DNA from: Actinomycetes bacterium
GTDB lineage: Bacteria > Actinomycetota > Acidimicrobiia > Acidimicrobiales > SZUA-35
NCBI GenBank assembly: GCA_024280015.1
Contig: JAJRQY010000121.1
Coordinates: 1 to 54,902 of the forward strand
DNA: 54,902 nucleotides
Direction of reading: 5' to 3'
Below the pieces are notes generated by a model that saw nothing but the letters and a program-made list of their open reading frames with translations, made no database searches and had not been told where the DNA came from. The position numbers were made by a program, and so were the translations under genes. Position 1 is the stretch's first letter. Every line of letters begins with the position of its first letter. This document shows positions 22,373 through 53,918 of this stretch, in pieces.

Positions 22373-22429
22373 GAACGCCCTCAGGGCCAGCCAATCCGTG
22401 TGGCATTGGTCCTGTCTTGGGTTCTGGTC

Positions 22430-22458
22430 TTGTTTGCTTGCGCCAGTCGGTCTAGATT
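22430..22458 (+). promoter_or_regulatory. Leaderless promoter of the acyl-CoA dehydrogenase
   Basis: TTGTTT (22430-22435), a 17-bp spacer, TAGATT (22453-22458), then seven bases to the ATG at 22466. Spacing fits a housekeeping promoter whose transcript starts at the start codon. Confidence 0.6.
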
Positions 22459-22465
22459 TCCGGGC

Positions 22466-23713
22466 ATGCAGCCAACGTATGCTCCCGAAGCCGAGATCTT
22501 CCGAACCAGAATCAAGGGGTTCCTCAGCGACAATCTCCCGGACAACTGGGTCGGCATCGGCGCCCTCGATGCCGAGGCCGCTCAAGTGTTCATCGACAGT
22601 TGGCGAAAAATCTTGTCAGAGAATCAGCTTCTTGCTGCCTCTTGGCCCAAGGAGTTCGGCGGGGGCGGCTTGTCTCACCTCGAGTCTGTCATCTTGGCGG
22701 AGGAGTTCCAGAAGGCCGGTGTGCCAACCGGTGGCTCCAACGATGCCTTCAGTATCCAGATGGTCGGCAACACCATCATCCAATGGGGCACTGATGAGCA
22801 AAAGGCTCACTTCTTACCTCGGATCATTTCCGGCCAAGACATCTGGTGCCAGGGCTACTCCGAACCCAACGCCGGCTCGGACCTCGCCAATGTCGGTTGC
22901 AAGGCCGAGCTAGACGGAGACGAATGGCAAATCAACGGCCAGAAGATCTGGACGTCGGCTGGCCACCTAGCAAACTGGATATTCGTGCTCGCGCGTACAG
23001 ATGCCGACGTTGTCAAGCATCGCGGCATCACCTTTCTACTCGTCCCGATGGAACAAGAAGGAGTCGACGTTCGTCCAATCAAGATGATCTCGGGCGACTC
23101 CGAATTCAACGAGGTGTTCTTCACTGACGCCAAAACGGCGAAGGAAAACGTGATCGGCGAGGTCAACGGCGGCTGGGGCGTTGCCATGACTCTGCTTGGC
23201 TATGAACGAGGCGAGGCAGCAGCCACAATGCCCCTCACATTCAAGAGTGAGGTAGGTCGGCTTCTCGACCTAGCCAAGGAGAACGGCACCAACGAAGACC
23301 CCGTTATTCGTGACCAGCTGGTCGCCGCCTACATGCAGACACAGATCATGGGGTACCTCGGTATGCGGACCTTGACCAAGTTCTTGGCTGGTGAGCATCC
23401 AGGTGCTGACGCATCGATCTTCAAGCTCTTCTGGAGCGAATACCACCGGGAAGTAACCGAACTCTCCATGGCTGTTCTTGGCGCCAATGGGATGATCATC
23501 GACGGCAAGTTCCCCTCCAGCGCCTTCGGCCCCGATTCACCCGGAGCCGCCAACAATTCTGGTAGCTGGATCGGCACCTTCTTGAACGCTCGTGCTGGCA
23601 CCATTTATGCCGGGACGAGTCAGGTCCAGCGCAATATCATTGGCGAGATGGTCCTCGGACTTCCCAAGGAGCCAAAGCTCGATCGTGGACCGTGGAAAGA
23701 CGTTCCGAAGTAG
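22466..23713 (+). CDS. Acyl-CoA dehydrogenase family flavoprotein
   Basis: A 415-residue FAD enzyme oxidising acyl-CoA thioesters at C2-C3. The N-terminal helical domain holds AASWPKEFGGGGLS. The middle FAD-binding strand is WCQGYSEPNAGSDLA, with GQKIWTSAGHLANWIFVLART. The C-terminal domain ends with the typical ARAGTIYAGTSQVQRNIIGE. The NAGSDLA and WTSAGHLA forms resemble the group acting on branched, long-chain or sterol-derived substrates, but the substrate is not fixed. No partner enzyme lies next to it, and the leaderless promoter suggests its own transcript. Confidence 0.92.
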   Translation: MQPTYAPEAEIFRTRIKGFLSDNLPDNWVGIGALDAEAAQVFIDSWRKILSENQLLAASWPKEFGGGGLSHLESVILAEEFQKAGVPTGGSNDAFSIQMVGNTIIQWGTDEQKAHFLPRIISGQDIWCQGYSEPNAGSDLANVGCKAELDGDEWQINGQKIWTSAGHLANWIFVLARTDADVVKHRGITFLLVPMEQEGVDVRPIKMISGDSEFNEVFFTDAKTAKENVIGEVNGGWGVAMTLLGYERGEAAATMPLTFKSEVGRLLDLAKENGTNEDPVIRDQLVAAYMQTQIMGYLGMRTLTKFLAGEHPGADASIFKLFWSEYHREVTELSMAVLGANGMIIDGKFPSSAFGPDSPGAANNSGSWIGTFLNARAGTIYAGTSQVQRNIIGEMVLGLPKEPKLDRGPWKDVPK

Positions 23714-23747: not shown

Positions 23748-24020
23748 GTGGGGTCATTGTCGAAGTCGACAGCCAGGTTGATCAGCGTCGAACTCGTTTT
23801 CGCCATCCTGCGACGCCCTGATCTCTGGTCGACGGCAATACGTTCGGCCCAAGATCATGCGCCAACTAGGTGGTGGCGCCGCCGGCCATTCGTTCCTCTT
23901 CCTGATCCAGCCTGGATCAATTTCCGATTGGAGACTGCCTATGGCCACGATCAGGGTCAGCCAATCGGTGCCGACGAGTTTGTGACCTGGCTCGAGTGGC
24001 AAGCCTCAAAACCCATCTAG
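23748..24020 (+). CDS. Conserved small actinobacterial protein, function unknown
   Basis: A 90-residue protein starting at GTG. The pattern RPDLWSTAIRSA, then a Trp/Arg-rich WWRRRPFVPLPDPAW, then FRLETAYG and FVTWLEWQ, recalls a small conserved protein seen across actinobacteria; I know no function for it. It has no signal peptide or membrane helix. Its stop codon falls inside a 17-bp tandem repeat, so the gene end was produced or altered by a duplication. Confidence 0.65.
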   Translation: MGSLSKSTARLISVELVFAILRRPDLWSTAIRSAQDHAPTRWWRRRPFVPLPDPAWINFRLETAYGHDQGQPIGADEFVTWLEWQASKPI

Positions 24021-24035
24021 CCTCAAAACCCATCT
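24002..24035 (+). repeat. 17-bp exact tandem duplication spanning a stop codon
   Basis: agcctcaaaacccatct occurs at 24002-24018 and 24019-24035, with a partial third unit after it. The TAG of the preceding small gene lies at the junction. The period is not a multiple of three. Confidence 0.8.
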
Positions 24036-24076
24036 AGCCTCACCAAAAGGCCCGAGCCACCATCCCAACTCGTTCT

Positions 24077-24116
24077 GGCACCGACCAGATGTCGCATATG
24101 GATCGCTACCGGTGCC
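24077..24116 (+). repeat. 40-bp dyad element, copy 1
   Basis: Begins GGCACCGACC and ends CTACCGGTGCC, so the 7-bp ends are inverted repeats around a 26-base centre. The same 40 bp, with three differences, occurs on the opposite strand at 52215-52254. It lies in the 105-bp gap between two convergent genes. Confidence 0.8.
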
Positions 24117-24125
24117 AGGTCGCAG

Positions 24126-25097
24126 TTAATTTGGGAGGACGGCTCCGAGCTGCATTCCTTGGGCCCGAAAGGCTAGGGCCCCGGCGCCGATCAGCGGGCT
24201 CGCATCACCATTTCCTGCAGACAGAATCTTGGTGCCTCGGGAATAGTCCAGATCACAAACCCGGTCGATCTCCAACTGGGCGCTGGAGAAAAACAGCTCG
24301 CCAAAGCCAAGACCCACCGAGCCACCAACCACCGCGAGTCGAAGATCAAGCAAGTTAGCTGTTGAGCCGACTGCCTGGCCAACCAACCGACCGGTTCGGA
24401 TCTTGATCTCATCGCTCGCCTCCTTCGCTGGCTTGCCGGTCCAGCTGGCAATCGAGGTACCCGAGCACTCCGCTTCCAGCACCCCTCGTATCTGCCCCGG
24501 CGGCTGATGAGTGTCGCCACAGTCTTGCGGACGAACAACGATCTGGCCGATATGCCCGGCATTGCCATCGGCACCGGCCAGGAGTCGCCCGTTGCACACG
24601 ATTCCACCACCAACACCGGTGGAGACCACCATGCCGATGTAGTCCGACTCCCCCGCAGCGGCACCGACCCACCCCTCACCAAGAGCAAAGGCCTTGGCAT
24701 CATTGTCGACCGTTGTTTGCAGGCCCGTGAGCTCGGCCACCCGTTCGGCCAATGGGAAGGATCGCCAACCGGGAATGTTCAGTGGAGATACCAAGACCCG
24801 CTGTTCACTATGGAACGATCCGCCACCCGTTGCCGCTCCGGTTGAACGCCCTCCGGTTGAACCTGTCATCGGCCCACCACAGCCGACCCCACAACCGACA
24901 AGGCCAGCCAGCGCTGCACTCGCCCGGTCGGCAAATCCGAGCTGTTCCACGAGGGACATGAGGACCCCAAACAGTTCTTCCGCCGAGCCTGCGACCGGTG
25001 TCGGTTTCGCTACGCGTCTGATCAGGTTGCCCTCCTGATCGACGACTCCAGCCGCCATCTTTGTTCCACCGACATCAATAGCCAACACAGATTTCAC
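24126..25097 (-). CDS. ROK-family sugar kinase or regulator, atypical
   Basis: A 323-residue ROK protein. The phosphate-1 loop LAIDVGGTKMAAGVVD is at residues 5-20, VDNDAKAFALGE carries the catalytic Asp region, and STGVGGGIV is the second ATP loop. Two departures are clear. The ROK zinc motif (normally CxCGxxGCxE) is replaced by DCGDTHQPPGQIRGVLEAE, so the usual Cys ligands are missing. A Gly/Ser/Thr-rich insert with a 15-bp repeat lies near residues 72-98. It may be a divergent glucokinase or N-acyl hexosamine kinase. The start is GTG with TAGACT six bases upstream, again a leaderless pattern. It is divergent from moxR with only 40 bp between the starts. Confidence 0.8.
   Translation of the reverse strand: MKSVLAIDVGGTKMAAGVVDQEGNLIRRVAKPTPVAGSAEELFGVLMSLVEQLGFADRASAALAGLVGCGVGCGGPMTGSTGGRSTGAATGGGSFHSEQRVLVSPLNIPGWRSFPLAERVAELTGLQTTVDNDAKAFALGEGWVGAAAGESDYIGMVVSTGVGGGIVCNGRLLAGADGNAGHIGQIVVRPQDCGDTHQPPGQIRGVLEAECSGTSIASWTGKPAKEASDEIKIRTGRLVGQAVGSTANLLDLRLAVVGGSVGLGFGELFFSSAQLEIDRVCDLDYSRGTKILSAGNGDASPLIGAGALAFRAQGMQLGAVLPN
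24836..24865 (-). repeat. 15-bp near-tandem duplication in the ROK gene
   Basis: ctccggttgaacgcc at 24836-24850 is followed by ctccggttgaacctg. It encodes part of the Gly/Ser/Thr-rich insert and preserves the frame. Confidence 0.65.
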
Positions 25098-50698: not shown

Positions 50699-50896
50699 CT
50701 AGGAACCGGCCGCTGTTTGGTGCCGAAGATCGGGGATCATTCCGGCCGCTTGCAGGCGACGCATGGCCGCAAACTCAGCGACATCAATCACGATTGCGTC
50801 CTCTGGCTCTCGCGAGGTGATGAAGGTGACGAGGCAATCGCCGCAGCTGCCGGTCTCCTGGCGGATACAGATCGAACAATCGATGGAGAAGCTCAT
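50699..50896 (-). CDS. Small Cys-rich conserved protein, function unknown
   Basis: A 65-residue protein with four closely spaced Cys (CSICIRQETGSCGDC), likely a metal site. The rest is FITSREPEDAIVIDVAEFAAMRRLQAAGMIPDLR, which resembles a small protein conserved in actinobacteria. The pattern C-x2-C-x7-C-x2-C fits zinc or iron. It stands alone, convergent to nothing and upstream of queG in the same direction with a 62-bp gap. Confidence 0.65.
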   Translation of the reverse strand: MSFSIDCSICIRQETGSCGDCLVTFITSREPEDAIVIDVAEFAAMRRLQAAGMIPDLRHQTAAGS

Positions 50897-51010
50897 GCCG
50901 ATGACACTAAAGAGCCACAGTGACAGCCAACTGCAGACAGAAGTCCTGACCCAACACCGCTGTGCCCGTCCCGACAGAGGACCAGGACTGAGGGCCCGAC
51001 AGGGATCGTC

Positions 51011-51028
51011 TCTACCAGATGGTAGATT
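51011..51028 (+). promoter_or_regulatory. Inverted repeat overlapping the leaderless -10 of the dehydrogenase gene
   Basis: TCTACC AGAT GGTAGA (51011-51026) is a 6-4-6 inverted repeat. TAGATT at 51023-51028 forms the -10, and seven bases separate it from the GTG at 51036. A repressor bound to the repeat would cover the -10. Confidence 0.6.
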
Positions 51029-51035
51029 CAGCCGG

Positions 51036-52199
51036 GTGAAGGCTCTGGAATTTCGTCGTAACGAAGCACGCTATGTCGCTTCCGCCCTGACCTCCCGACT
51101 CCGGCCGGGCAGCGGCGCTCGTTCCGGTCCCCTTTCTCTCATCGAAGGTGACGCACCCGATCTCCCAGCCGATGGCTGGGTTCGGGTCACGACGCGACTC
51201 GCCGGTATCTGCGGCTCAGACCTGGCCACGGTCGAGGGACACTCCTCCCGCTATTTCGAACCCTGGGTGTCGTTTCCCTTTACTCCAGGGCATGAGGTTG
51301 TTGGCCAGCTGGATGATGGCCAGCGCGTGGTCCTCGAACCGGTACTCGGTCACGCGGCCCGAGGTTTCGAACCACCCTTCGCCGAGGCTGCTCCCGGCGA
51401 TGGAAATGACTATCGACATCTGGTGAGTGGCGACCTAAAGCCCGGCATCCAGACCGGCTCGTGCGCTTCAACTGGTGGCGGCTGGTCCACGGAGTTTGTG
51501 GCTCACGAGTCCCAGCTTCATACGGTGCCTGACGACATGTCCGACGAAGCAGCGGTCATGATTGAGCCGACTGCAGTTGGTGTCCATGCCGCCCTGCGAA
51601 CACCTATCGAGGAAGGCGCAACAGTCGTTGTCCTCGGGGCTGGAACCATGGGACTTGTCACGGTCGCTGCCCTTCGACGTTTCACCCAGGCAGGGACAAT
51701 CTTGGTTGGAGCCAAATATCCCGAACAGGTTGATCTAGCCAAAAGCCTTGGGGCTGACCAGGTAGTCAAGCCCAATGAACTTCTGCGGGCCGTCCGACGC
51801 CACACCAACAGCTTCATGATCGGTGATGATCTTTCCGGCGGAGCCGATGTCACCATTGATGCTGTTGGCAACGCAAAATCGGTCCAGGAGGCCATCGGCA
51901 TGACTCGGCCTCGGGGCACCGTTGTTCTATTGGGTATGCCGGGCCGAGCCACCGTGGACTTCACGCCCCTGTGGCACCGAGAAACCTCGCTGGTTGGGGC
52001 ATACACCTACGGCACCGAAACCTTGCCTGGCGGAGCAACACGAACGTCCTTCGACATGGCAACTGAACTGGTCGAGGCAGCCAACCTTGAACGACTGGTT
52101 GGGGCCAGCTACCGCTTGGACGACTACGAAGAGGCCTTGGCTCATGCTGTGCAGGCTGGTGGACGCGGCACCATCAAGGTCTGTTTCGACCTTCGCTAG
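51036..52199 (+). CDS. Medium-chain (zinc-type) alcohol dehydrogenase, next to mycofactocin genes
   Basis: A 387-residue MDR-family oxidoreductase. The catalytic-zinc Cys is in AGICGSDLATVEG and the His-Glu pair in FTPGHEVVGQL. The Rossmann loop is VVVLGAGTMGLVTVAAL, and TIDAVGNAKSVQEAIGMTRPRGTVVLLGM follows. The four-Cys structural-zinc lobe seen in many members is not visible: the stretch after LEPVLG lacks the CxxCxxC pattern. A GTG start at 51036 is supported by the TAGATT box seven bases upstream. Its position directly before mftA suggests, but does not prove, use of mycofactocin as electron acceptor. Confidence 0.85.
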   Translation: MKALEFRRNEARYVASALTSRLRPGSGARSGPLSLIEGDAPDLPADGWVRVTTRLAGICGSDLATVEGHSSRYFEPWVSFPFTPGHEVVGQLDDGQRVVLEPVLGHAARGFEPPFAEAAPGDGNDYRHLVSGDLKPGIQTGSCASTGGGWSTEFVAHESQLHTVPDDMSDEAAVMIEPTAVGVHAALRTPIEEGATVVVLGAGTMGLVTVAALRRFTQAGTILVGAKYPEQVDLAKSLGADQVVKPNELLRAVRRHTNSFMIGDDLSGGADVTIDAVGNAKSVQEAIGMTRPRGTVVLLGMPGRATVDFTPLWHRETSLVGAYTYGTETLPGGATRTSFDMATELVEAANLERLVGASYRLDDYEEALAHAVQAGGRGTIKVCFDLR

Positions 52200-52214
52200 C
52201 CCTACAGTCGACTT

Positions 52215-52254
52215 GGCACCGATAGCGATCCATATACGACATCAGGTCGGTGCC
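52215..52254 (-). repeat. 40-bp dyad element, copy 2
   Basis: Reverse-strand copy of the element at 24077-24116 (37 of 40 bases equal). It starts GGCACCGA and ends TCGGTGCC, giving 8-bp inverted ends. It lies 16 bp after the dehydrogenase stop and 93 bp before mftA. Confidence 0.8.
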
Positions 52255-52335
52255 AGTTGCAGTGTTCTGGACTGGATCGGCGACCCGTAGGGCTGGCCCT
52301 GCCTCCATGTTTGCATTGAATCGACCTCCTTCCAC

Positions 52336-52347: not shown

Positions 52348-52494
52348 ATGAATTCTGCTCCGGCCACCACCACCAGCGATGACCTCAATAGCGACGACAT
52401 GGCTGAACAAGCGATTCCAGCGTCCGACGATCTAGTTGAGGACGAGCTATTGGTAGAAGAGATCTCCATCGACGGCATATGCGGCGTCTACTAG
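52348..52494 (+). CDS. mftA: Mycofactocin precursor peptide MftA
   Basis: A 48-residue ribosomal peptide precursor. The leader is acidic (Asp/Glu-rich, no Cys), and the core ends IDGICGVY immediately before the stop. In characterised systems the radical-SAM enzyme MftC decarboxylates and crosslinks the last two residues, Val-Tyr, to begin making the redox cofactor mycofactocin. The usual ending is IDGMCGVY, so Met is replaced by Ile here while Cys, Gly, Val and Tyr are kept. mftB starts 13 nt downstream. Confidence 0.95.
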   Translation: MNSAPATTTSDDLNSDDMAEQAIPASDDLVEDELLVEEISIDGICGVY

Positions 52495-52507
52495 ATCTGC
52501 CAGATCA

Positions 52508-52801
52508 ATGCCCTTGTTAAGTCTTGATTCTGGCTGGCGGCTTCACCAGAGGGTGTCGCTACGACCCGAGCCCTTCGGGGCGTTGGCCTATCACTACGAT
52601 AATCGTCGTCTGAATTTCCTTCGCTCCCCCGATCTGGTGCGGGTAGTTACTTCGCTAGGCGACCACACGACGGTGGCCCTCGCCCTTTCCGATTGCGGCA
52701 TCGAGCCAACACGCTGGCCGACCTTCGAGCGTGCCCTTCACTCCTTAGCTGCCTCAGATTTTCTCCAGCCCCAGGAACAACAACCAGAGGAACCGGCCTA
52801 G
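52508..52801 (+). CDS. mftB: Mycofactocin binding chaperone MftB
   Basis: A 97-residue protein with a PqqD-like RiPP recognition element. Family features are W near residue 10, VSLRPEPFGALAYHYDNRRLNFLRSPDLV and the C-terminal helix-containing end. MftB binds the MftA leader and presents it to MftC. The C-terminal Gln/Glu-rich tail is short. It lies between mftA and mftC with gaps of 13 and 4 nt. Confidence 0.95.
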   Translation: MPLLSLDSGWRLHQRVSLRPEPFGALAYHYDNRRLNFLRSPDLVRVVTSLGDHTTVALALSDCGIEPTRWPTFERALHSLAASDFLQPQEQQPEEPA

Positions 52802-52805
52802 ATCT

Positions 52806-53918
52806 ATGGCGAAGCTGACCGATGAACTGAAGCTCGGCCTTGACGCCCCGATCTGTATGACCTGGGAGTTGACCTACGCCTGCAATCTGGCCTGCATCCA
52901 CTGCTTGAGTTCATCAGGTCGAACCGATCCTGATGAACTGTCAACGGCCGAGGCCAAGGCCGTCATCGACGAGATGCGCGACATGCAAGTCTTCTACGTC
53001 AATATCGGCGGTGGCGAACCAATGATTCGGCCAGACTTCTTTGAACTGGTCGACTATGCGACCAGCTCCGGGGTCGGCGTGAAGTTCTCCACCAATGGTT
53101 CACGCATCACGCCCGAGCGAGCCCTTCAGCTGGCAGCTATGGAGTACCTGGATATCCAGATCTCGCTGGATGGCGCTGATGCTGCTACCAACGACGCAGT
53201 TCGCGGTGATGGATCGTTTGACACCGCAATCTCGGCCATGGATGCTCTCCAACAAGCTAACTTTGGACCATTCAAAATTAGCGTTGTTGTTACCCGACAC
53301 AATGTGCCCCAGCTTGATGAGTTCAAGGCCCTGGCTGATCAGTACGGTGCCGAACTACGCCTAACTCGCCTTCGCCCCGCTGGACGCGGCGCTGATACCT
53401 GGTCAGAGCTTCATCCTTTGGCTGATCAGCAGGTGGAGCTGTACCACTGGCTGCTGGCCCATCCCGACGTCTTAACCGGTGACTCGTTCTTCCATCTCAA
53501 TGCGCTTGGTGATGAATCGCTACCTGGGCTGAATCTTTGTGGTGCTGGTCGGGTGGTTTGCCTGATCGACCCTGTCGGCGATGTCTATGCCTGCCCCTTT
53601 GTGTTGCATGATGAGTTCAAGGCAGGCAACGTCCGGAGCACCGGCGGTTTCAAACAGATCTGGCAAGAGTCCGATCTCTTTGCCCAATTGCGGGAGCCGC
53701 AATCGGCGGGCGCCTGCGCCAGCTGCGGCCAGTTCGATGCCTGCCAGGGTGGTTGCATGGCAGCCAAGTTCTTCACTGGCTTGCCACTGGATGGACCTGA
53801 CCCTGAGTGTGTGACCGGACACGGAGAAGCATCGTTGGCCTCTGTTGGTTCCGGATCACTGCCGGAGCCGACCACCAACCACTCAAAACCAGTTCCCGTC
53901 ATGCTTGGCCGCCGCTAG
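52806..53918 (+). CDS. mftC: Mycofactocin radical SAM maturase MftC
   Basis: A 370-residue radical SAM enzyme with a SPASM domain. The cluster-binding CNLACIHC gives Cys26, Cys30 and Cys33. FYVNIGGGEPMIRPDFFEL is the GGE region, and the SAM-binding strands FSTNGSRIT and DIQISLDGADA follow. The C-terminal SPASM cysteines are in LNLCGAGRVVCLIDPVGDVYACPF and ACASCGQFDACQGGCMA. MftC acts on the C-terminal Val-Tyr of MftA. The gene is followed after 13 bp by a convergent unrelated gene; mftD, mftE and mftF, usually next, are not there. Confidence 0.96.
   Translation: MAKLTDELKLGLDAPICMTWELTYACNLACIHCLSSSGRTDPDELSTAEAKAVIDEMRDMQVFYVNIGGGEPMIRPDFFELVDYATSSGVGVKFSTNGSRITPERALQLAAMEYLDIQISLDGADAATNDAVRGDGSFDTAISAMDALQQANFGPFKISVVVTRHNVPQLDEFKALADQYGAELRLTRLRPAGRGADTWSELHPLADQQVELYHWLLAHPDVLTGDSFFHLNALGDESLPGLNLCGAGRVVCLIDPVGDVYACPFVLHDEFKAGNVRSTGGFKQIWQESDLFAQLREPQSAGACASCGQFDACQGGCMAAKFFTGLPLDGPDPECVTGHGEASLASVGSGSLPEPTTNHSKPVPVMLGRR

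Follow-up and report, generated by a model that had tools for sequence, protein, structure and literature searches.

The described systems closest to the element reported here are the REPs, the Rickettsia palindromic elements (RPEs) and the MITEs. According to the available part of one account (PMC3733652), REPs of the GTAG and CGTC super-families lie mostly between unidirectional or convergent genes near 3' ends, occasionally fall inside open reading frames (ORFs) or supply stop codons, and form close doublets in some genomes; the CGTC REPs are presented there as short palindromic repeats without a dedicated transposase. RPEs – again as described in the accessible portions of the sources – insert in-frame into unrelated protein-coding genes (PMC10969869, PMC3733652). 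A literature search brought up no article describing a family of palindromic repeats in Acidimicrobiia; in the part that was available, PMC12306157 tabulates Acidimicrobium ferrooxidans.

The window analysed here – contig C152, 54,902 nucleotides, from a 4.80-Mb genome of 175 contigs designated G000 – carries two copies of a 40-bp dyad, for which the initial annotation had offered three readings: a REP-like mobile element, a protein-binding site or a small structured RNA. Judging from sequence comparisons, we consider it probable (roughly 0.78) that the dyad represents a very small mobile palindrome, non-autonomous and REP- and RPE-like in its behaviour. The core of this element is 42 bp long, TGGCACCG-N26-CGGTGCCA, and the whole would measure about 52 bp with the loose CGWNC flanks, should these be part of it.

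With REPs, in so far as they are covered in the available part of PMC3733652, the family has in common its size class, its multi-copy dispersal, a mostly extragenic location (28 of 32 copies here) towards 3' ends, occasional intra-ORF copies and the occurrence of doublets. It differs from them in carrying the same 8 bp at both ends, in its fixed overall length, in interiors that are specific to each lineage and in numbering tens of copies in the genomes examined. Moreover, none of the 32 copies has a GTAG, CTAC, CGTC or GACG tag within 6 nt outside its ends (a count from which the CGTC variants TGTC and CCTC are left out) and, unlike a REP accompanied by its RAYT, the element resides in a genome devoid of any Y1_Tnp match. 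Membership in the tagged REPs therefore fails, as there is no tag and, for the GTAG REPs, no match to the enzyme family.

The likeness to RPEs is one of described behaviour and concerns the in-frame presence in unrelated genes: three ORFs in this genome, two of which encode proteins (P0001 and P0002) whose aligned relatives lack the corresponding peptide in 10 of 10 cases each. The first-reported RPEs are, however, about 150 bp long (PMC10969869, available part), compared with about 42–52 bp here, and most of the present copies are intergenic instead.

MITEs resemble the element in their shortness, their terminal inverted repeats, their multi-copy state and the lack of a coding gene of their own. 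Most MITEs are longer, however, and here neither a convincing target-site duplication nor, at the nine of 15 isolated half-sites that were read (see below), a related full-length insertion sequence was found.

Two inverted copies in the window

Direct reading confirms that two 40-bp stretches, 24077–24116 on the forward strand (GGCACCGACCAGATGTCGCATATGGATCGCTACCGGTGCC) and 52215–52254 read on the minus strand (GGCACCGACCTGATGTCGTATATGGATCGCTATCGGTGCC), are inverted relative to one another and identical at 37 of 40 bases. The likeness also runs into the flanks, as had been proposed, with a T/A and then a loose C-G-W-N-C outside each end. A 21-bp core has two matches in the window, whereas 100 shuffles gave 0.01 on average; these shuffles, together with the zero-count reversed-pattern controls given below, rule out a chance origin.

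Both copies had been placed in short gaps after a plus-strand gene. This describes copy 2, which closely follows the zinc-dependent dehydrogenase gene, but not copy 1, which sits between convergent genes and well away from the acyl-CoA dehydrogenase gene (Table 1). Just upstream of copy 1, at about 24004–24040, 17–18 bp around CCTCAAAACCCATCTAG are repeated head to tail. Beyond copy 2, positions 52348–53918 form the start of a mycofactocin cluster, in which mftA (C-terminus IDGICGVY), mftB and the radical SAM maturase, assigned by NCBIfam equivalog models, are consecutive.

Table 1. Element copies in the window and the genes around them
Feature	Coordinates	Strand	Remark
Copy 1, 42-bp unit TGGCACC...GGTGCCA, type-A interior	24076..24117	+	82.3 bits, best match of the family model (copy 1 is in its training set)
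Copy 1 with outer loose C-G-W-N-C on both sides, 52 bp, borders uncertain	24071..24122	+	Pooled end composition
Copy 2, 42-bp unit, type-A interior, inverted relative to copy 1	52214..52255	-	71.9 bits, family model
Copy 2 with outer flanks matching C-G-W-N-C imperfectly, 52 bp	52209..52260	-	Pooled end composition
ROK-family gene (context)	24126..25097	-	Stop codon 8 bp from copy 1
Acyl-CoA dehydrogenase gene (context)	22400..23713	+	362 bp upstream of copy 1
Zinc-dependent dehydrogenase gene (context)	50763..52199	+	Stop codon 14 bp ahead of copy 2
Mycofactocin precursor mftA (context)	52348..52494	+	Start 92 bp after copy 2

A family of fixed length in the source genome

With up to three mismatches, the pattern of the window copies occurs 16 times in the genome, and a slightly more degenerate version finds 20 copies (type A); the reversed-pattern control gave zero in both cases. 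The covariance model R1, built from the 20 type-A copies, scores them at 70.3–82.3 bits, the next sites reaching 44.7 and 39.3 bits and those that follow falling below 35. A pattern that fixes only the ends (TGGCACC and GGTGCCA) and allows 20–40 bp between them, hence total lengths of 34–54 bp, returns 32 sites (reversed control 0), every one of them 42 bp long. These divide into the 20 copies of type A, the window's own type, and 12 copies of type B, which have interiors around GGTAGAGCACGC...GCGTGCTCTACC and include A/B intermediates. That all 32 have exact ends follows from the design of the search; the retention of the ends rests on type A, for which the model search showed no copies between 45 and 70 bits. 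The search of the genome and its relatives thus uncovered 20 type-A and 12 type-B copies in the source genome, rather than the window pair only or a single long duplication.

The half-site TTCTGGCACCG occurs at 45 places (7 in the reversed control), 15 of which lie outside the 32 units. Nine of these isolated half-sites were read, six proving to be decayed or truncated type-B copies and three looking unrelated, and a tenth (on contig C168) is a longer, altered unit. Given such decayed and truncated copies, type B looks older than type A, as would be expected for an earlier wave.

Over the 42 bp, mean pairwise identity is 0.886 in type A and 0.736 in type B, dropping in the flanks to 0.31 and 0.28, respectively. 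The contrast between 0.31 outside and 0.89 inside type A implies that the copies are not fragments of longer duplications, and a longer recent duplication can accordingly be ruled out. Substitutions in type A are distributed very unevenly: the 320 positions of the 16 end columns contain a single minority letter, and the 26 interior columns include 14 invariant ones, compared with 1.7 expected if changes were evenly spread. The centre is therefore, as first suspected, more conserved than a simple terminator would need; the invariant interior columns fit selection on each copy equally well as a filter acting during copying.

Outside the units, the motif C-G-W-N-C is visible in the composition of the 64 pooled ends (C in 54, G in 43, A or T in all 64, C in 56). 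The idea that the outer NN dinucleotides extend the paired stem was rejected: left and right dinucleotides are combined almost as at random in type A, and type B shows a slight excess of pairing (a level reached by 8.4% and 4.8% of shuffles). Type-B interiors and those of the units in relatives are near-palindromic, so the symmetry of the dyad is of importance at one stage or another, even if subsequent changes go uncompensated. A target-site duplication was sought over several hundred settings, with uncertain borders, and none was convincing, the best excess per base over other pairings being 0.27 versus 0.20 for type A, 0.44 versus 0.27 for type B and 0.38 versus 0.21 for the relative G014.

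Copies between and within genes

Gene context was derived from a simple codon-based gene caller. By this measure, 28 of the 32 copies are intergenic – 10 between convergent genes, 11 in tandem and five in divergent arrangements, and two with one side unclear – while four overlap predicted ORFs. A stop codon is the nearest gene boundary for 21 of the 28 intergenic copies. Beyond the window, 58 neighbouring genes were called, and the proteins of 50 of them were scanned, yielding a Pfam family at E ≤ 0.001 in 44 cases (two of them below the curated cut-off). The neighbours thus supported have ordinary cellular functions, and no transposase or recombinase family was found above cut-off among the 50, so no larger transposon carrying the copies is visible.

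ORFs enclose three of the type-A copies, all translated in a common frame, LAPVATHMRHxxGA; these ORFs encode P0001, P0002 (of the PrpF family) and P0004 (a 4'-phosphopantetheinyl transferase). The shared frame is only suggestive, because it is open in all 20 type-A copies and several frames are open in each of these three (4, 5 and 4 of the six in the copies of P0001, P0002 and P0004, respectively). A fourth copy provides the final residues, QVSHMDR, of an undecaprenyl-phosphate-translocase-like ORF. It is in the frame of this terminal copy that the weak coding reading proposed at the outset (MS-Y/H-MDRYRCQV) finds some substance; it is not the frame used by the three copies within ORFs.

P0002 has matches in 16 of 61 genomes, its own included. 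The peptide is absent from all of its best 10 relatives in other genomes, which are 15–22 residues shorter at this place; among solved structures, where eight chains match, it is also absent from two alignments with (4E)-oxalomesaconate isomerase, that with the best solved relative included. For P0001, matched in 30 of 41 genomes (again counting its own), the best 10 relatives from other genomes likewise all lack the peptide and are 8–13 residues shorter. A 42-bp unit encodes 14 residues, and the gain falls short of that; either this insertion added more than it left or removed residues as well, or the loop was altered afterwards. The same-genus genome G001 shows only 66% and 63% identity in the two proteins compared with relatives.

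Related units in Acidimicrobiia

Whether copies exist in relatives – a point on which the initial annotation had made its proposal depend – has a divided answer. When R1 was searched against 61 genomes (the source and 60 relatives, under filtering that misses some weak matches), scores above 35 bits were obtained in the source genome only, and type A as such is thus missing from the relatives at this threshold. Some relatives do, however, share the ends and a similar length with other interiors: weak R1 matches occur in five of them, the loci of four showing exactly the same ends, and 42-bp-like units with these ends and different interiors number 41 in one relative genome and 3–9 in others.

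A scan of 39 genomes from the family of the source detected at least one end-pattern site in 25. Five genomes stand out by the number or uniform length of their sites: G000 with 32 (control 0), G014 with 44 (control 4), G017 with 11 (control 2), G020 with 6 (control 1) and G036 with 4 (control 0). The remaining 34 have 40 sites in total, against 51 in the reversed control. In G014, 41 of the 44 sites are 42 bp long, with interiors around GTTACTTGTCGC...GCGACAAGTAAC that differ from type A; six pairs lie 61–63 bp apart (loci L149, L154 and L159 among them), in the same orientation as judged by eye, and two of 15 sites read overlap predicted gene ends. The predominant length is 40 bp in G017 (nine of 11 sites, with two pairs 72 bp apart) and in G036 (four of four), and 43 bp in G020 (five of six). 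G008 has five end-pattern sites (control 2), including a pair like those of G017; palindrome pairs spaced at 72 bp are thus seen in both genomes. G001, which belongs to the same genus as the source, has a single end-pattern site of a different length.

Further afield, matches occur in 14 of the 296 genomes of a class-wide sample, for the most part as single sites that vary in length. G050, from another family, has three sites, all of 42 bp, and 42-bp units are also present in G041, likewise from another family; at the G041 loci L049 and L056, these units have the same ends and an interior that holds a nested GGTGCCAGGGCACC palindrome. A scan of named genomes returned 18 stretches, and several copies were found only in two Acidimicrobiia assemblies; the source genome falls into the family of these two, which makes its host a member of the Acidimicrobiia.

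Candidate mobilisers and carriers

Y1_Tnp (PF01797), the family of the RAYT enzymes, has no match in the source genome (96.6% complete), in G020 or in G036. It is present in 10 of the 39 family genomes, including the copy-rich G014 and G017 but also G005, G008, G009, G011, G019, G022, G028 and G029, each with 0–5 end-pattern sites. Mobilisation by a RAYT was rejected on both grounds: PF01797 has no match in the source genome, and its distribution over the 39 genomes does not track copy number.

A parent insertion sequence with shared ends did not emerge either: at the nine of 15 isolated half-sites that were read, the next 1.5 kb or so downstream contained no partner in inverted orientation. 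Carriage by phages or plasmids was likewise rejected: the type-A pattern gave zero matches in viral contigs, a search of phages gave none, and one of plasmids gave a single 22-bp partial match (E 0.07). One IMG/VR viral contig (L270, 13766–13812) has a single end-pattern match, which could be due to chance.

Alternative readings

The copies might instead be DNA sites maintained by the host and selected near gene ends, for example for a dimer of a nucleoid or regulatory protein that reads TGGCACC at a fixed spacing. The constant 42-bp length of all 32 sites, the near-invariant ends and many invariant interior columns of type A, and the closeness to stop codons would all suit such a site. Regulatory sites are usually conserved across a genus, yet the 60 relatives are without a type-A match above 35 bits and the same-genus G001 offers one end-pattern site of another length; in addition, three copies lie inside ORFs, at two of which the aligned relatives are shorter and devoid of the peptide. 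We therefore regard this reading as unlikely. Protein binding survives rather better as an account of the constrained sequence than as the origin of the copies.

Two further readings invoke the transcript. A family of intrinsic or bidirectional transcription terminators is very unlikely: the position of stop codons relative to the intergenic copies and the folding of the outer stem (MFE -17.9 to -23.7 kcal/mol, z -1.6 to -2.6) speak for it, as does a T-rich stretch in seven of 64 flanks (10.9%, versus 4.8% at random positions), but this stretch is missing from the other 57, five copies lie between divergent genes and three inside ORFs, and the type-A interior is more conserved than a terminator requires. 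A terminator scan called neither window copy, though, as it takes loops of 3–8 only, it could hardly have detected this hairpin. We give scarcely any credence to the proposal that each copy yields a small structured RNA or RNA motif. RNAalifold does predict an outer stem and an inner helix, type B and several relatives have near-palindromic interiors, and in type A the 13 altered cells at two inner pairs are without exception A-to-G changes facing a T; these would preserve G-U pairing in the RNA of just one strand and are no more than suggestive. The RNAalifold covariation term is, however, only -0.44, with one pair showing two-sided change, and at almost every variable position of type A, type B and 15 copies from G014, symmetric pairing does not exceed what shuffled partners give, invariant pairs being uninformative. 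Among the variable positions, compensating changes do not maintain pairing across the dyad in type A or the 15 G014 copies and scarcely do so in type B. Nor does Rfam match, either in the window at gathering scores or, around copy 1, at E up to 1; this part of the initial annotation found no support.

A probable mobile palindromic element and its implications

A small mobile palindromic element, REP-like as first suggested, is well supported by the 20 and 12 dispersed copies, their unrelated flanks, the absence of the peptide, for two intragenic copies, from 10 of 10 aligned relatives each, and the lack of a type-A match above 35 bits in the 60 relatives. Copies would arise by insertion at new sites. 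Most survivors would lie in intergenic DNA near stop codons, concentrated there because they do little damage in such places, and some within genes as in-frame additions. Copying would probably be catalysed in trans by an enzyme recognising the TGGCACC ends, as the combination of strict ends with variable interiors suggests; the interiors could drift or be replaced while the ends and the length persist. Any effects on the host, such as folding at the 3' ends of mRNAs, would be secondary.

A bolder version of this scheme, possible but doubtful in our estimation, is that of a minimal transposon in which nothing is fixed but a pair of TGGCACC ends and their spacing of about 42 bp, or some four turns of B-DNA. 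Such a unit would be moved in trans by an enzyme other than a Y1/HUH RAYT, its interior would be replaceable, and each lineage of Acidimicrobiia would carry an interior of its own in the same frame. If this is true, they would rank with the smallest known mobile units and would naturally supply proteins with insertions of about 14–17 residues.

Short palindromic repeats without a dedicated transposase are an open puzzle, for which this family – with its fixed length, its strict ends, its interiors varying between related genomes and its copies in identifiable genes – is a clean test case. If mobility is confirmed, the enzyme might be traced by comparing carrier genomes with relatives that lack the element. 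The copy in the PrpF-family gene offers a direct test of whether an enzyme tolerates an inserted peptide.
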